64,000 nucleotides of DNA from a bacterium (GTDB lineage: Bacteria > ARS69), in assembly GCA_025774805.1 (NCBI GenBank), contig JALGZR010000052.1, forward strand, positions 1 to 64,000, given 5' to 3'. Of the stretch, positions 13,554-26,284 are shown piece after piece. Positions within the stretch are counted from its first letter, which is position 1, and the number at the start of each line of letters is the position of its first letter. Made by a program: the position numbers and the translations under genes. The notes beneath the pieces were generated by a model. It was not told where the DNA came from. It saw nothing but the letters and a program-made list of their open reading frames with translations, and did not search any database.

Positions 13554-15186
13554 TCAGAGCCCGCAGTTCTCGGAAGGTGTCTCGTTCACAGCGGCGGCCA
13601 GCTGCTTCGCCTCTCTACACGCGGCTCCTTCTCCGGAGGCGAGGAGCGGCTCGACCACGGCGATCACCGCACCCATCGTCGAATCGACCTCGCCGTCCCC
13701 GTCCGTGTCGACGGGGAGATCCGGATGGGCGCCGTTGTAGGCCCAGTTCAGGAGAGCGGTGAACCAGTGGCGGTGCGCTTGGGCACAACGGGCGCCGAAC
13801 TGTTTACCGAGAACGAAGAGCGCGTCCTCGGGATCCAGGCTTCCGTCTCCCATCGTCCAATCGATTACCGTCTCGCTCTCCACGGACGCCAGCAGGGCCA
13901 CGAGATCGTCCGGATCGAGCCTCAAACGGCCCCGGCCGGCGCCCACCAGGCAGGCGTACTGGTGCTTCCAGAAACCGGGCCCGCGGAAGCAGACGTCTTC
14001 CGGCGGCGGCGCCGACGGGGCCCATCCGAACGCGAGGTCGGCCACGACGGCGTTGTCCGCGGCGAGGTTCACGAGCTCCGGACTGCAGTCCCCCCCGGCG
14101 CAGGTCGTGGGCTCCCAACCGGCGGGAAGGGTCGACTCGTGGACCAGGACCAGGTATTCGCCGGCGCAAAGGCCGACGAACGAGAATGCCCCGTCTCCAT
14201 CCGTGCTCGTCACCGCAGGTCCGGCCGCCCCGCCCTGGAGCTCCACCGTGATCCAGGCGAGTCCCGGCTCGTGGGAATCCTCGATCCCGTTTCCGTCCTC
14301 GTCGTGCCAGACGCGCCCCGAGACAGATGCGACACAGGTCGTCGGCTCGCCGTCGATGCAGAGCGCGCCGAGTATGTGCACGATGCGGTCACCCGATCCG
14401 TCGGCCGGGCTCTCGAGCTGGTAGGCGAAGTGCGCGGCGTCCGATGGAATCGTGACGTCCTCGATGATGACATCCATCCAGGCGCCGGCGGCGGCGGTGA
14501 GACGATCTTCGAGCACGTTCGGAGCGGACCCGACCAGCGAGGCGGCGGCCGGGCCGGGGCCGGCGCTCCACCAGATCCTGTCGGTCGAACCGGCCTCACA
14601 GTCGCCGGCGGCTATCACGAACCGTCCCTGGCGGGCTTCGTGCGAGTAGCCCGCGGGGAACTCCCAAACCGACCCCGCCCCGTCGTGAACGAACTCCTGC
14701 GGATCGACGAAGTGAATCGCGGTCCACGGGGAGTCCGGATCGTAGTAGGTCACGATCGCGGTGAGACCGTCGAGCCGCATCGGTTCTCCGAGATCGAACC
14801 CGCTCACGAAGAGCGTGTTGTTCCCGTGGCGGAGGAGCGACGACGCGTCGTATTCGTACACGAACGCCGCCGACTTGCTGACGCGCGATCTGCGTCGCGG
14901 CCCGCTGGTGGCCATTGACCAGGATGTACGGGTCACCGGCGGGATTCGTTCCCCGACCGGCCCAACGAAGGCGGGCACTCGTGATGTCGGCGCCGGATGC
15001 CGCCGGAACGTGGAGGTCGAGTCGGGCGGGCTGCGAATCGAGACCGACGGCGGCGACGACCAGGTTCTGCGGCGGATCGTAGCGCGGGAGGCTGCCGGCA
15101 GGATCCGGTTCGAAGAGGCCCTCTCTCAGACAACCTGCGACGAATGTCGAGCACGCCAGAAGAGCGAGAGCATAGCGGACGTTCAT
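13554..15186 (-). pseudogene. lipoprotein with SdrD_B-like domain, split by a frameshift
   Basis: The start is the ATG preceded by GGGGGAAGTGTC. The N-terminus is a lipoprotein signal (LALLACSTFVAGC) followed by a beta-rich region (SARLRWAGRGTNPAGDPY). Around 14885-14900 the frame is lost in a GCGCG-rich tract and coding sense resumes one frame over with RVSKSAAFVYEYDASSLL. The second part holds an SdrD_B-type repeat (SVSGRVWHDEDGNGIEDSHE) and a C-terminal GPGFWKHQ domain with paired cysteines. Both halves make good protein, so a single-base indel, either a real recent mutation or a sequencing error, is the simplest reading. It is probably a cell-surface adhesin-like lipoprotein. Nothing else in the neighbourhood suggests a partner. 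Confidence 0.7.
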
Positions 15187-21725: not shown

Positions 21726-24635
21726 TTACCGGCGACTCACCGTCCGCAGTCCGATCTCGATCCCATTCCGGATCTCGGGACCGCGATCGAGCTCGACGCG
21801 AAAGGGCCTGGGAAGGACCCAGTCCGGTCTTCTCCCCGAATCGAGCAGGGTGATCTCGACCCGGCCGGGCGGCAGTCCCTTCAAGACGAACCGTCCCTGG
21901 AGATCCACGACCGCCAGCCTCGAGCCGGCCCGCAGAGCCGCGCCACCCGCCGGCGGCTCGTCCCGGTCCCAGCGACCGTTGCCGTTTCGGTCCACGTAGA
22001 CGTGGCCGCGCACCGAGCGCAGCGCACGGAGAGGCAGCTCCCACCGCACCGTCTCGCCGGCCGTCGCCGTGACGGTGAGATCCTCCCAGCGCCCCAGGGG
22101 GGAGTAGTCCGTCGGCAGCGAGCTCCGCCGCCAGTCACAGGTCACCGTTCGCCCCAGAGGCAGCATCTGGCGGGTCGCTCCCGCCGTGGTCGTGCGGACC
22201 TGCACGTCGACCCCCGTGAGGTACAGACGAAGGTCCGACACCAGGGGCTCCCCTTCGTCCAGCTGTCCGTTCTCGTCCAGATCGCTGAATGCGAGCAGCT
22301 CGAGCGTGGCGGGGGCCGGGCCGAGGCCGAAGTCCGCCCCGGGACGGTCGACCGCGGCCAGGGCCACCCTTCGAACGACCGGTGTCGTCGCGACGAGCTT
22401 CGTCACTTCCGGATCGGGGACGACCCGCACGTGAACACGATCGGCGCGAACTCCGCCGAAACGATAGAACCCGTCCGAGCCGGTGACCGCCTCGCGACCG
22501 TCGTCCAACCGGACCTTCACTCCGGGCACCCCGAACTCCAGCGGGTCTCTCCGTCCGTTCGCGTTCCGATCGTGGAAAACCAACCCTCGCACGGTCCTCC
22601 GGGGGTAACGGCGACCCCGTTCCACCGCCGGCCGCCCCGCCCCGAATCCATGGGTGAGACCGATCTGAATCGCCCCGTTCTCCAGGTCCATGTCCGGATC
22701 CTGATCCCAGGCGGCCACCATGTCCGCCCGGAAGCCGTGCCAGGGCCGCGTGCCGAGTTCGACCCGCGCGGTGTAGCGCCGTCCCGAGTTGAACTTCCGG
22801 TCGAGGAGGCTCAGGTATTCCCACTCCTGGTAGCCGAGCGTGAATCTCCCGTCCCCCATCGGACCGAAGCGAGGTGCGCGACCGACGACCTGGGTGCGCC
22901 AGACGAAGTCACTCGGTTCGTCCGTCACGTCGTCCCCGAAGAAGCGACGCTCCAACCGGGCCTCGACGCTCAGCCACTCCGAGAAACCCAGCTCCGGCTC
23001 GAGATACACGGACCGTCGCGTGAAGTCGTCCCTGTCGCCGTCCGTGATCCGCTCGTTCGTGTTCTCTCCGCCGATCCTGAGTCCGACCCACGCGCCGTGC
23101 CGCTCGAGCCCCCCGTTGCTCCGGAAACCGACCTCTCCGCCTCCGCGCCACCTCCGCCAGTGATCCTCGCGGATGTCGTTGTCGCCACGCTTCAGCCATC
23201 CCCTCAGCAGGACAGCCTCCGTCAGTTCGTAGTCCGCTCCCAGGGAGTGGTATCGATTGTCCAGCCACGCGTCGATCGCGGAGGGGGTGACCGCGGCGGA
23301 GAGCGCGGCCGGCCCCACTCGCAACGGTCCCGACCCCGGTGGAGGCGTGACGGTGAGCTCTGACTCGGGAGGAGGAATCACGGTAAAGGTGCTCGTCTCC
23401 GTCTGCTCCCACCGTCGCCACGAGGTGGTTGCGTTCAGGCGCAGACGGTCTCCGACGTCCCGGCGGGCGCCCAGGCGGAGGTAGCGCGATCCCGGGAGCC
23501 CCCGACCTCCGCGGAGGGTCCTGAAGGGACCGTTGAAGAAGTTCGCACTCGCGGACAGAGCCGTGCCCCGCCGGGCCCACCGGATCCCCCCATCGCCGGC
23601 CAGGTGGTCTCCGTCGACCGCCAGGAGCCCCTCCCAGTCGACGTGGGCCTCGCGTCCCCTCGTCCCGATCGACCCGACTCCCCGCGTCTCGTCTCCCGGA
23701 CCCCACCGGGTGCCGAGCTCCGCGTGGGCGAACACGTCCGAGGAAGGACGCCACTGCAGGCGGGCCCCGCCGAGTCGATCCCGCGTCGGGGCGTAGAGAC
23801 GGGTGCGACTTCCCGGGACCACGACGTCGGGGACGTCCTCCCCGTAACAGACTTCGAGGAGAAGACGCTGTCGCCCGCCGACGAGACGCGGGGTGCCGAG
23901 CTCCAGCCGTCCCCCCTCGAAGCGGTCCCGGAAGAACGTGAATCGACTCCAGGCGACGTCGACCATGCCGAGATGGAGTCGTGGTTGGTGGAAGGGACCG
24001 AGCTGGGGACGTTCGAGGAGCACGTCGTACTGCAGCACGTCGACCTCCCCTTCGCGCTCCTCCAGCGTGAGTCGGCCCTGCCCGTGGAGGTCGCCCCGGT
24101 TCAGGCGCGCCTCGCCCGTGTGGGTCCGGACGCTGCTGCTCGTGCTTCTCGGGCCCTCGGTTCGGTAGCCGTAGTAGCGGGTGCCGTACGTGATCGAGAG
24201 GGGTCGACCGTTCCTCACCCGCGGGTCCTGCGAGGGGTCGAGGATCGGCCGGTGACCGAGCACCATGGCCCGAAGAACAATGGGGCGGCCCTCGCTCCAC
24301 ACCCGGATGGTCGCCATGCCGTACTTCAGGCCCCGGAGAACGATGCGCCCGGGGTCGGGCGCGTTCACCGCGACCAGCTCCGGATCGAGATTGAGCAACC
24401 GATCGACGGGCTCGACGCTCACCTCCAAGCTGTCGCCGATGTACAGCTCGAACTGCCGCACGTCGGATTCGGTGGTCTGAGCCCGCAGGGGAATCGCCCC
24501 CAGCGCACCTGCGAGCAAGAGGGCGAACACGACTCGGGCCGGCGCTCCGATCGATGGGGCGGGCCGGCATCTCTCACCCGGCGCAGCGAGCCGCTGCCGG
24601 AGCCGAGGCTGTTGAGAGACGCAGGCCGGGTTCAA
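21726..24635 (-). CDS. usher-like outer-membrane protein: secretin-type N-domain, beta-barrel, SdrD_B-like domains
   Basis: 969 residues from a TTG start with AGAGGA 6 bases upstream; no ATG or GTG fits. A signal peptide (VVFALLLAGALGAIPLRA) is followed at about residues 60-135 by a domain like the N-domain of pilus secretins (DRLLNLDPELVAVNAPDPGR, then GLKYGMATIRVWSEG). Residues about 150-670 are beta-rich with alternating aromatic strands (ARVELGTRPWHGFRADMVAA, GAIQIGLTHGFGAG), as in an outer-membrane barrel. Three Ca-loop/Ig-like repeats close the protein (VFHDRNANGRRDPLEFGV, FSDLDENGQLDEGEPL, VYVDRNGNGRWDRDEPP). It is preceded in the operon by a chaperone-like gene and a subunit-like gene. 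Domain order recalls ushers, but homology to known ushers is unproven. Confidence 0.65.
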   Translation of the reverse strand: MNPACVSQQPRLRQRLAAPGERCRPAPSIGAPARVVFALLLAGALGAIPLRAQTTESDVRQFELYIGDSLEVSVEPVDRLLNLDPELVAVNAPDPGRIVLRGLKYGMATIRVWSEGRPIVLRAMVLGHRPILDPSQDPRVRNGRPLSITYGTRYYGYRTEGPRSTSSSVRTHTGEARLNRGDLHGQGRLTLEEREGEVDVLQYDVLLERPQLGPFHQPRLHLGMVDVAWSRFTFFRDRFEGGRLELGTPRLVGGRQRLLLEVCYGEDVPDVVVPGSRTRLYAPTRDRLGGARLQWRPSSDVFAHAELGTRWGPGDETRGVGSIGTRGREAHVDWEGLLAVDGDHLAGDGGIRWARRGTALSASANFFNGPFRTLRGGRGLPGSRYLRLGARRDVGDRLRLNATTSWRRWEQTETSTFTVIPPPESELTVTPPPGSGPLRVGPAALSAAVTPSAIDAWLDNRYHSLGADYELTEAVLLRGWLKRGDNDIREDHWRRWRGGGEVGFRSNGGLERHGAWVGLRIGGENTNERITDGDRDDFTRRSVYLEPELGFSEWLSVEARLERRFFGDDVTDEPSDFVWRTQVVGRAPRFGPMGDGRFTLGYQEWEYLSLLDRKFNSGRRYTARVELGTRPWHGFRADMVAAWDQDPDMDLENGAIQIGLTHGFGAGRPAVERGRRYPRRTVRGLVFHDRNANGRRDPLEFGVPGVKVRLDDGREAVTGSDGFYRFGGVRADRVHVRVVPDPEVTKLVATTPVVRRVALAAVDRPGADFGLGPAPATLELLAFSDLDENGQLDEGEPLVSDLRLYLTGVDVQVRTTTAGATRQMLPLGRTVTCDWRRSSLPTDYSPLGRWEDLTVTATAGETVRWELPLRALRSVRGHVYVDRNGNGRWDRDEPPAGGAALRAGSRLAVVDLQGRFVLKGLPPGRVEITLLDSGRRPDWVLPRPFRVELDRGPEIRNGIEIGLRTVSRR

Positions 24636-24677
24636 AATCGTTCCTCTACCGCTCCGGAGTCGAGGGCCTCGGTGCGA

Positions 24678-25796
24678 TTACCGGATTCGGAAATGTCTCG
24701 AGCTCGCGAGGCTGTGGTCTTCGTTCTCGAGAAGCACCGTGAGCTCGTACTCGCCCGGAGGCAGGGAGCCGAGGGGCACCGTCTGCCCGGATGCCTCCCC
24801 GGGCAGGATGGTGAGGTCAGGGGCATCGGGAGATTCGACGGTCGCTCCCCGCGTGTCATTCACCCGGATCGTGCTCCTGAGGACGGCCGTGATGTTGCCC
24901 CGGTTCTCGACGCGCACGATGGCGTCCGCGCGACCCTCACGCTGCACGACCTCCGCGAGCATCAGCTCGAGGTGATCCACGACCTCGAACTCCATCTCCG
25001 GGGTGAGGAACCGTCCTCCTCCGAGCTCGATCGTTCCGATGATCTGATACTTGCCGGGAGCGAGCGGACCGTCCCACTGCTCGGCGACCCGAATGTCTCC
25101 GCCCGGCTGGGCGAAGTACGTCTTCATCTCCACCTTGCCCATCAGCAGGCCGCTCGCATCCACGATCGCAAAGGACCCTCCCGGCCTCAGCCCCGCGTTG
25201 CCGCGATTGCGAATGACCGCATGAATCTCCAGACCCCGCGTGTCGTCCGGCCGCGAGACCCTAAGACCCTCCAGCTCCGCGTGCCAGTTCGTATTGCCCT
25301 CGGTGTCCACGGTGATCAGGTGCCCGAGATTGACCCGCGTGGCGACGGTGAGGGCGCTCGGAGAGGCCTGGGCCACCGGATCGATGTCGACGATGAAGGC
25401 ACTGAAGTAGCTACCGATGGCGTTTTCGGGAAGCGTGACCGAGAGGGAGATCTCCTGCAGACCGCCCGCCGGTATCTCGAACTCGGTCGGCCAGACCTGA
25501 AGCCACTCGGTGCAGGATCGCTTCTGCGTGTTCGACGGGTGATAGCGCAGTCTCTCGGCCAGGCCGTCCTCGATCGTCCAGTCGTGAAGCCGGAGACGAC
25601 AGGAGATCGGCCCGTCCGTCATGTTGCCGATCGTGACCGTCTGACCGCCATGGCTGCCCGGAGCCACGGTCATCCGGGTCGACGACGGGGTCATGCTCAC
25701 CTTGGCGGCGGTCGTCGACGACGACGCGACCGTCATCGCGATCGCGAGAGACGCGACAATCAGATACCACCCAGGTACCCGTAGGGATCGATCCAC
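24678..25796 (-). CDS. PapD/DUF916-like periplasmic chaperone-type protein
   Basis: 372 residues from a GTG two bases after the upstream stop, giving a good signal peptide (GWYLIVASLAIAMTVASS). No earlier ATG fits. The first Ig-like domain has the marks of pilus chaperones and DUF916: MTVAPGSHGGQTVTIGNM, a Trp-containing strand, then WLQVWPTEFEIPAGG and SVTLPENAIGSYFSAF. Two more Ig-like domains follow (FRIR is the C-terminus), so it is longer than classical PapD proteins of about 230 residues. Tight spacing on both sides implies co-translation with the subunit and usher-like genes. A chaperone role is inference from fold and context. Confidence 0.6.
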   Translation of the reverse strand: MDRSLRVPGWYLIVASLAIAMTVASSSTTAAKVSMTPSSTRMTVAPGSHGGQTVTIGNMTDGPISCRLRLHDWTIEDGLAERLRYHPSNTQKRSCTEWLQVWPTEFEIPAGGLQEISLSVTLPENAIGSYFSAFIVDIDPVAQASPSALTVATRVNLGHLITVDTEGNTNWHAELEGLRVSRPDDTRGLEIHAVIRNRGNAGLRPGGSFAIVDASGLLMGKVEMKTYFAQPGGDIRVAEQWDGPLAPGKYQIIGTIELGGGRFLTPEMEFEVVDHLELMLAEVVQREGRADAIVRVENRGNITAVLRSTIRVNDTRGATVESPDAPDLTILPGEASGQTVPLGSLPPGEYELTVLLENEDHSLASSRHFRIR

Positions 25797-25798
25797 GG

Positions 25799-26284
25799 CT
25801 AGATCGCAGTCACCGTCAGGTTGATCTGGAACTGATAGCTCGTCGTGTTCTGCTGCGCTCCCACGTTGAACTGGGCCGCGACGTTCTTGTTGAAGTTCTC
25901 GGATACCCCTCCGATGGGGGCGGTGAACTGGCGAGACGTGCCGAAGTCGGCCTGCAGCCAGGTCAGGGTCTCCGAGCCGTCGTTGAGGGTGACGCTCAGA
26001 TCCCAGTCGGGTCCGCCGGGCTTCGTCACAATGGACGAGAGGTTGAACGTCTGGGCGGGGCCCAGGTTGTGGGTCACGGTCAGAATCAGGTTGTCCGTGG
26101 GCGAACTGCCGGGAGTCGTCGTGCCGAAGTTCTGCGAGGTGGTGCCGCTCGTCTGCCACTGAACCGTGACCCCGATGTCCGTGGATACCGCCAAGGTCGC
26201 GAAAGCATCGGCTTGCGCCCCACACACCCCCGTCCACAACCCGACCAGACCGATCGCGAGAATGGGCAGGAGAGTCGCTCTCAT
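25799..26284 (-). CDS. secreted fibre/pilin-subunit-like protein
   Basis: 161 residues with an excellent ribosome binding site (GAGGAGG) before the ATG. A signal peptide (LPILAIGLVGLWTGVCGAQA) is followed by a Thr/Asn/Gln-rich all-beta domain (AVSTDIGVTVQWQTSG, NLILTVTHNLGPAQTFNLS, ending YQFQINLTVTAI). The size, lack of cysteines in the mature part, and the alternating pattern at the C-terminus are those of a pilus or spore-coat-U-type subunit, where the last strand is donated. It is the first gene of a three-gene unit with the chaperone-like and usher-like genes. No named family was recognised. Confidence 0.6.
   Translation of the reverse strand: MRATLLPILAIGLVGLWTGVCGAQADAFATLAVSTDIGVTVQWQTSGTTSQNFGTTTPGSSPTDNLILTVTHNLGPAQTFNLSSIVTKPGGPDWDLSVTLNDGSETLTWLQADFGTSRQFTAPIGGVSENFNKNVAAQFNVGAQQNTTSYQFQINLTVTAI

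Follow-up and report, generated by a model that had tools for sequence, protein, structure and literature searches.

Chaperone-usher systems, including those of the archaic (sigma) pathway, have been described from proteobacteria, Cyanobacteria and Deinococcus-Thermus, and in archaic and alternative chaperones a super-conserved arginine (Arg89) in strand F of the first immunoglobulin (Ig)-type domain, D1, anchors the C-terminus of the subunit (PMC4654587). In Gram-positive WxL clusters a small WxL protein is paired with DUF916-DUF3324 proteins (PMC10599100). Here we analysed three adjacent genes in a stretch of 64,000 nucleotides of bacterial DNA (contig JALGZR010000052.1 of assembly GCA_025774805.1, positions 1 to 64,000; hereafter the window), which, with a probability of about 0.7, encode a minimal and highly divergent system of the chaperone-usher type for making a surface fibre. 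An initial annotation, made from the letters alone, had read them as resembling a new type of chaperone-usher fibre system. The computed support for this reading comes from gene linkage, from homology of the gene 2 product to chaperones, from homology of a sister branch of gene 3 (branch V) to ushers and from the barrel predicted for a Margulisbacteria homologue of gene 3 (locus L168). Subunit binding and the role of the subunit, donor-strand exchange, secretion and the fibre itself are what we infer from these data.

The archaic pathway, of which Csu is an example, is the closest described relative. The reference was locus L138, whose chaperone answers the gene 2 profile and whose usher answers PF00577; above their cut-offs, SCPU recognises its subunit, PapD_N its chaperone and Usher its usher. 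The module has the same subunit-chaperone-usher order and a homologous Ig-type chaperone, and in both cases a large barrel, a predicted one in the module, is accompanied by two C-terminal beta domains, the last one weakly CarboxypepD_reg-like. Unlike archaic systems, the module has no Pfam Usher or PapD_N match, its N-terminal domain is secretin-type and its C-terminal domains are SdrD_B-type, Arg89 is replaced, no plug is seen in the window's branch and the window subunit is not SCPU. With respect to the classical pathway (FimC/FimD), the predicted L168 barrel is nearest to FimD in the PDB by Foldseek, whereas the sequence similarity of the chaperones is very weak (E 1e-3 only), the N-terminal domain is another one and, again, the plug is not seen. 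CpaC/RcpA-type secretins have the N-terminal domain T2SS-T3SS_pil_N in common with gene 3, in which Pfam finds no secretin channel domain.

The three open reading frames (ORFs) are uninterrupted on the minus strand (Table 1). Gene 1 ends at 25,799 and gene 2 starts at 25,796; therefore the intergenic gap is two bases. Gene 3 begins 42 bases past gene 2, and an in-frame GTG further in is an alternative to its TTG start. Order, positions and the two-base gap are those given by the initial annotation. A sigma-70 promoter scan gave no match, and a PDB sequence search with the three proteins returned no significant similarity.

Table 1. Genes and domains of the module, with window positions and the basis of each assignment (aa, amino acids; NTD and CTD, N- and C-terminal domain; pLDDT, predicted local distance difference test)
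Feature	Position	Strand	Basis
Gene 1: 161-aa secreted beta-rich putative fibre subunit	25799..26284	-	ORF and translation; role by position and C-terminal pattern
Gene 2: 372-aa predicted periplasmic chaperone-like protein, GTG start, two Ig-type domains and a third	24678..25796	-	Profile A1, hhalign
Gene 2: chaperone core, two Ig-type domains D1-D2	24978..25760	-	Profile A1 positions 5-262 of 274, E 3.9e-88 (the gene 2 product, P0002, is itself a profile member)
Gene 2: additional Ig-type domain at the C-terminus, repeating D2	24702..24953	-	Second match to A1 positions 169-255, E 1.6e-7
Gene 3: 969-aa putative usher-like outer-membrane protein, TTG start	21726..24635	-	ORF, Pfam, alternation, homologue model
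Gene 3: secretin-type N-terminal domain T2SS-T3SS_pil_N, standing where ushers have the NTD	24273..24458	-	Pfam; AlphaFold pLDDT ~75
Gene 3: barrel-like region (residues 130-670) in which no plug insertion is recognisable	22626..24248	-	Alternation; homologue model; own model not confident
Gene 3: first SdrD_B-like domain, usher CTD1-like position	22413..22583	-	Pfam, custom profile; pLDDT ~75
Gene 3: second SdrD_B/CarboxypepD_reg-like domain, usher CTD2-like position, limits approximate	22086..22310	-	Custom profile, AlphaFold
Gene 3: third SdrD_B-like domain, limits approximate	21801..21998	-	Custom profile E 1.3e-11

Homologues of gene 2 were found in 15 of 145 genomes and then, with a 14-sequence profile (A1), in 54 of 386 genomes in a sample spanning the Bacteria; the phylum of the source bacterium amounted to five genomes in the searched set. 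The surroundings of about 60 homologue loci were fetched and their genes read. The order that recurs is one or more small secreted proteins, the chaperone-like protein and then an ORF of 770-1200 aa, in which a region of about 400-600 aa of no assigned type is followed by two or three terminal SdrD_B/CarboxypepD_reg domains. Such a large SdrD_B-tailed ORF lies downstream on the same strand of 35 of the 68 chaperone genes (the window counted), adjacent or overlapping in 29, and two further chaperone genes have it in convergent orientation. The 35 modules are spread over 25 family-level labels, and the carriers named in a public genome scan were Candidatus Margulisbacteria, Marinamargulisbacteria and Termititenax. 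Of the 193 genomes in one sample, 2 gave a match above the cut-off of the usher profile and about 12 carried the module (hand count). The arrangement is therefore far beyond chance and recurs in many genomes, which answers the initial annotation's question of whether the three genes co-occur elsewhere.

The chaperone-like protein and the putative subunit

The gene 2 product matches no Pfam model at cut-off. In hhalign comparisons, profile A1 aligned with an archaic chaperone over both Ig domains at E 1.6e-11, as compared to 0.18 for the control DegP. Chaperone hallmarks were scored on the 68 homologues and on references: the proline of the superfamily is present in the window protein and in 37 homologues, and an arginine different from Arg89 stands at the start of strand G1 in 45 (the window protein has one two residues away). 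Judging from the homology over both Ig domains and from this proline, the gene 2 product can be assigned to the PapD-type superfamily. Since Arg89 is replaced and PapD_N is unmatched, yet the homology reaches the above E-value, it is best regarded as a relative of the archaic chaperones and not as one of them. The description "PapD/DUF916-like" in the initial annotation was thus right in kind, although neither name corresponds to a Pfam model at cut-off, and the extra Ig-like part that it had noticed is a third Ig-like domain repeating the second.

The gene 1 product has a signal peptide, an alternating N-terminal segment, DAFATLAVSTDIGVTV, and a C-terminal strand, YQFQINLTVTAI. In this putative subunit, for which no homologue was found, the pattern is compatible with the incomplete Ig fold and the N-terminal donor strand of chaperone-usher subunits. 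Searches for Pfam families, PDB entries and WxL domains gave no match. Of the small proteins encoded just upstream of chaperones, 18 of 43 end in a strand of the type aGxYxxxvxfTLT, a pattern picked after the sequences had been inspected, vs. 13 of the 269 remaining ORFs (Fisher p 5.5e-10). The window subunit does not have the full motif. The subunit of the archaic reference locus ends in a similar strand, SGNYSDVVVATITF, and its SCPU sequence was not matched by the subunit profile. The subunit role is therefore a putative one, proposed from the position of the gene, the length of its product, the signal peptide and the overall pattern.

The same two proteins would also fit a Gram-negative counterpart of the WxL clusters, in which gene 2 encodes a WxL-interacting-type (DUF916-like) adaptor, gene 1 the bound surface protein and gene 3 an outer-membrane anchor, so that a complex and no polymerised fibre is formed. 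Both arrangements pair a small secreted protein with a multi-Ig adaptor, the C-termini of the subunits look like WxL ends by eye, and sub-threshold matches to WxLIP_PGBD were obtained for 3 of 14 chaperone homologues (best E 0.0016), that of the gene 2 product being weaker and directed to WxLIP_HBD. However, every WxLIP match stays below cut-off, against E 1.6e-11 for the archaic chaperone, the module contains neither a WxL domain nor an above-cut-off DUF916 or DUF3324, and the product of its third gene, itself barrel-like, has relatives that resemble ushers. To our knowledge, WxL clusters have no counterpart of such a gene. We consider this explanation unlikely, albeit the first among the alternatives.

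The usher-like protein

Pfam recognised T2SS-T3SS_pil_N at residues 60-119 of the gene 3 product (25.4 bits, cut-off 23; 29.4 bits in another scan), so that its N-terminal domain is not an usher NTD, and SdrD_B at residues 685-740 (45.6 bits, cut-off 29.7). A custom, family-specific profile detected three SdrD_B-like domains (E 4.8e-23, 0.025 and 1.3e-11). Between these parts, residues 130-670 show an alternating polarity with a z of 4.5 vs. shuffles and 21 peaks in 541 residues. With this home-made score FimD-type ushers gave 2.2-3.5, other barrels 1.9-4.1, soluble controls -2.2 to 0.4 and Ig sandwiches 2.0-2.3, and because of the latter the score is no proof by itself. The secretin-like N-domain, the beta-rich barrel-like region and the three repeats proposed by the initial annotation (one repeat being seen also by Pfam) were all recovered, and so was its claim of an architecture unlike the known usher classes, given the secretin-type N-domain and the absence of an Usher match. 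Relatives sought with the gene 3 product alone were not found.

The large ORFs of the module family split into branches by barrel sequence. The N-terminal domains of ten of them vary (secretin-type pil_N, Cu_amine_oxidN1, NEW3/Ig), and the whole-family alignment (A2) had no stretch conserved enough for scanning. The window belongs to the pil_N-type branch (alignments A5, A11 and A12), and branch V comprises L046, L113, L115 and L130 (alignment A6). In hhalign comparisons, branch V aligned with an archaic usher at E 1.7e-7; the 540 aligned columns start ahead of the plug, continue to the end and take in barrel, plug and C-terminal domains. With five FimD-type ushers of E. coli K-12 the alignment covered barrel start and plug at E 7.9e-6, while the controls FhuA and LptD gave 0.09 and 0.039. 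The plug is clear in branch V. The C-terminal tandem domains of the window's branch are common to branch V (E 8.5e-17) and to branch I (E 7.5e-25), and such tandems from a mixed set matched CTD1-CTD2 of ushers in register (E 2.3e-5), the window having three domains; when the window's branch or its members from Margulisbacteria were used, the E-values were 8e-4 and 1.3e-3. The barrel sequence of the window's branch did not align with those of ushers. Moreover, the conserved motif GDQ...FPxQPLQG..Y...FYGxNNxGxWG is uninterrupted in the window-branch alignment, with no plug-sized insertion, and the plug seems to be absent from this branch.

The L168 homologue, which has the same domain order, N-domain and tail as the window protein, was modelled by AlphaFold with five closer sequences (loci L168-L172). 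The model contains about 20 consecutive antiparallel strands at residues 205-570, mostly at pLDDT 70-85, without a plug-like insertion among them; residues 95-208 are not confident. The count, about 20 strands or more, compares with the 24 strands of the transmembrane barrel of ushers. In a Foldseek search of the PDB, FimD filled ranks 1-9 (best E 1.2e-8), with an alignment spanning barrel and tail. In the model of the gene 3 product itself, the N-domain is folded, as are C-terminal domains one and two. The fold check suggested by the initial annotation for the 969-residue protein therefore gave a large antiparallel barrel nearest to FimD in the homologue, but not a confident barrel in the window protein.

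These models have also to be weighed against the possibility that gene 3 encodes an unrelated outer-membrane barrel (a porin, LptD-like or a receptor) with SdrD_B tails, serving another export or display route, the likeness to ushers being due to convergence. LptD was matched by Foldseek at E 3.6e-5 and by VIA-align with Z 13.7 and 5.3 Å, as compared to Z 15.2 and 5.0 Å over 304 residues for FimD. Many porins (OprD-type among them) and TonB-dependent receptors reached a similar or slightly higher Z, so that Z alone cannot single out FimD; in addition, sequence similarity to ushers is limited, in the window's branch, to the C-terminal domains. On the other hand, most of these other barrels superpose at 9-12 Å root mean square deviation, the nine top Foldseek ranks are ushers aligned over barrel and C-terminal domains alike, a sister branch that shares gene order and C-terminal domains can be recognised as related to ushers and has a plug, and this type of gene 3 is fixed beside a PapD-type chaperone. 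We place convergence behind the WxL-like arrangement and regard it as improbable.

That the genes are an ordinary archaic system merely drifted past Pfam is very improbable, in spite of the gene order, of the clear homology to archaic chaperones and of the known occurrence of archaic systems in proteobacteria, Cyanobacteria and Deinococcus-Thermus (PMC4654587), since Arg89 is missing in 67 of 68 homologues, the usher N-domain is swapped for a secretin-type one, the plug is unrecognisable and neither the window's genome nor its family as a whole contains PF00577.

Several results count against a chaperone-usher-type system. None of the 14 A1 members matched PapD_N at E 0.1, and the Arg89 column holds Ser in the window and mostly Ala, Gly or Ser elsewhere, with Arg in 1 of 68 homologues. 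PF00577 found no match in the gene 3 product or in the ten large ORFs tested. The AlphaFold model of the gene 3 product, built with six sequences, has a pLDDT <30 over most of residues 128-678, the barrel sequence of the window has no significant match to the homologous barrels (the N-domain only aligns, at E 0.016), and the Foldseek template modelling scores are low (0.23) despite good E-values. No homologue of the gene 1 product was detected with the subunit profile, the C-terminal pattern was chosen post hoc, and relatives of the chaperone occur also without the large ORF, some of them beside secretin-type ORFs.

Proposed mechanism and class of the system

If the three genes do form a chaperone-usher-type system, the gene 1 product would reach the periplasm by Sec and would be held there by the Ig-type chaperone encoded by gene 2 through donor-strand complementation. 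The chaperone-subunit complex would then dock on the periplasmic domains of the gene 3 product, in which recruitment, the task of the NTD in known ushers, may fall to the secretin-type N-domain; the place of CTD1 and CTD2 would be taken by the SdrD_B domains in tandem. Subunits would polymerise by donor-strand exchange and exit through the large beta-barrel. As the locus has a single subunit gene, a homopolymer is expected. Since the barrel has no recognisable plug in this branch, another part would have to seal the pore; a proline-rich stretch around residues 420-450 of the gene 3 product may be put forward as a candidate, on conjecture.

Most likely, the system is distinct and chaperone-usher-like, apparently plugless in the window's branch, and fits no described class. 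There is about an even chance that it represents a fourth widespread chaperone-usher class, found in at least 25 family-level lineages, whose window branch combines a plugless usher-like barrel, a secretin-type recruiting domain, SdrD_B-type C-terminal domains and a different chaperone anchor. If the chaperone-usher-like reading holds, fibre secretion through usher-like pores would be far more widespread than the groups from which it has been described, and an usher without a plug would be of direct relevance to pore gating in ushers and to the evolution of the pathway. The module is apparently undescribed: in the literature searched, which left out most subscription journals and preprints, there was no account of DUF4402 with a chaperone, of a new usher class, of Margulisbacteria fimbriae or of SdrD_B ushers. 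With this coverage, the silence speaks weakly for novelty.

Related loci and neighbouring genes

The window's genome contains a second module of a different branch on another contig (L057, G000:C12, 1110-6389), with two related small secreted proteins, a chaperone bearing a C-terminal SPOR-like domain and an 887-aa SdrD_B-tailed ORF. In one branch, found in three genomes (L047, L048 and L098), chaperone gene and usher-like ORF converge. At L051 (4682-13271) and L118 (5236-8117), Ig-type chaperones, some in tandem, lie beside small secreted proteins and secretin-like ORFs (with an STN domain in L051), and no usher-like ORF is present. These loci may represent a further export route that relies on this family of chaperones, whose occurrence beside secretin-type ORFs suggests that it serves more than one export pore.

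A C-terminal dockerin domain is carried by the chaperone of L045 (7647-8672), and weak TPR-like extensions are found on both the chaperone and the usher-like ORF of L043 (7327-10842). In the window itself, a 523-aa ORF with an SdrD_B domain (49 bits) lies at 13557-15125 on the minus strand, and no chaperone homologue was found alongside. Finally, in Margulisbacteria (L161-L165) the module is flanked on one side by a secreted protein of about 225 aa without a Pfam family, in a similar order in several genomes, and on the other side by genes that, by eye, are UDP-glucose dehydrogenase-like and LptC/LptA-like.

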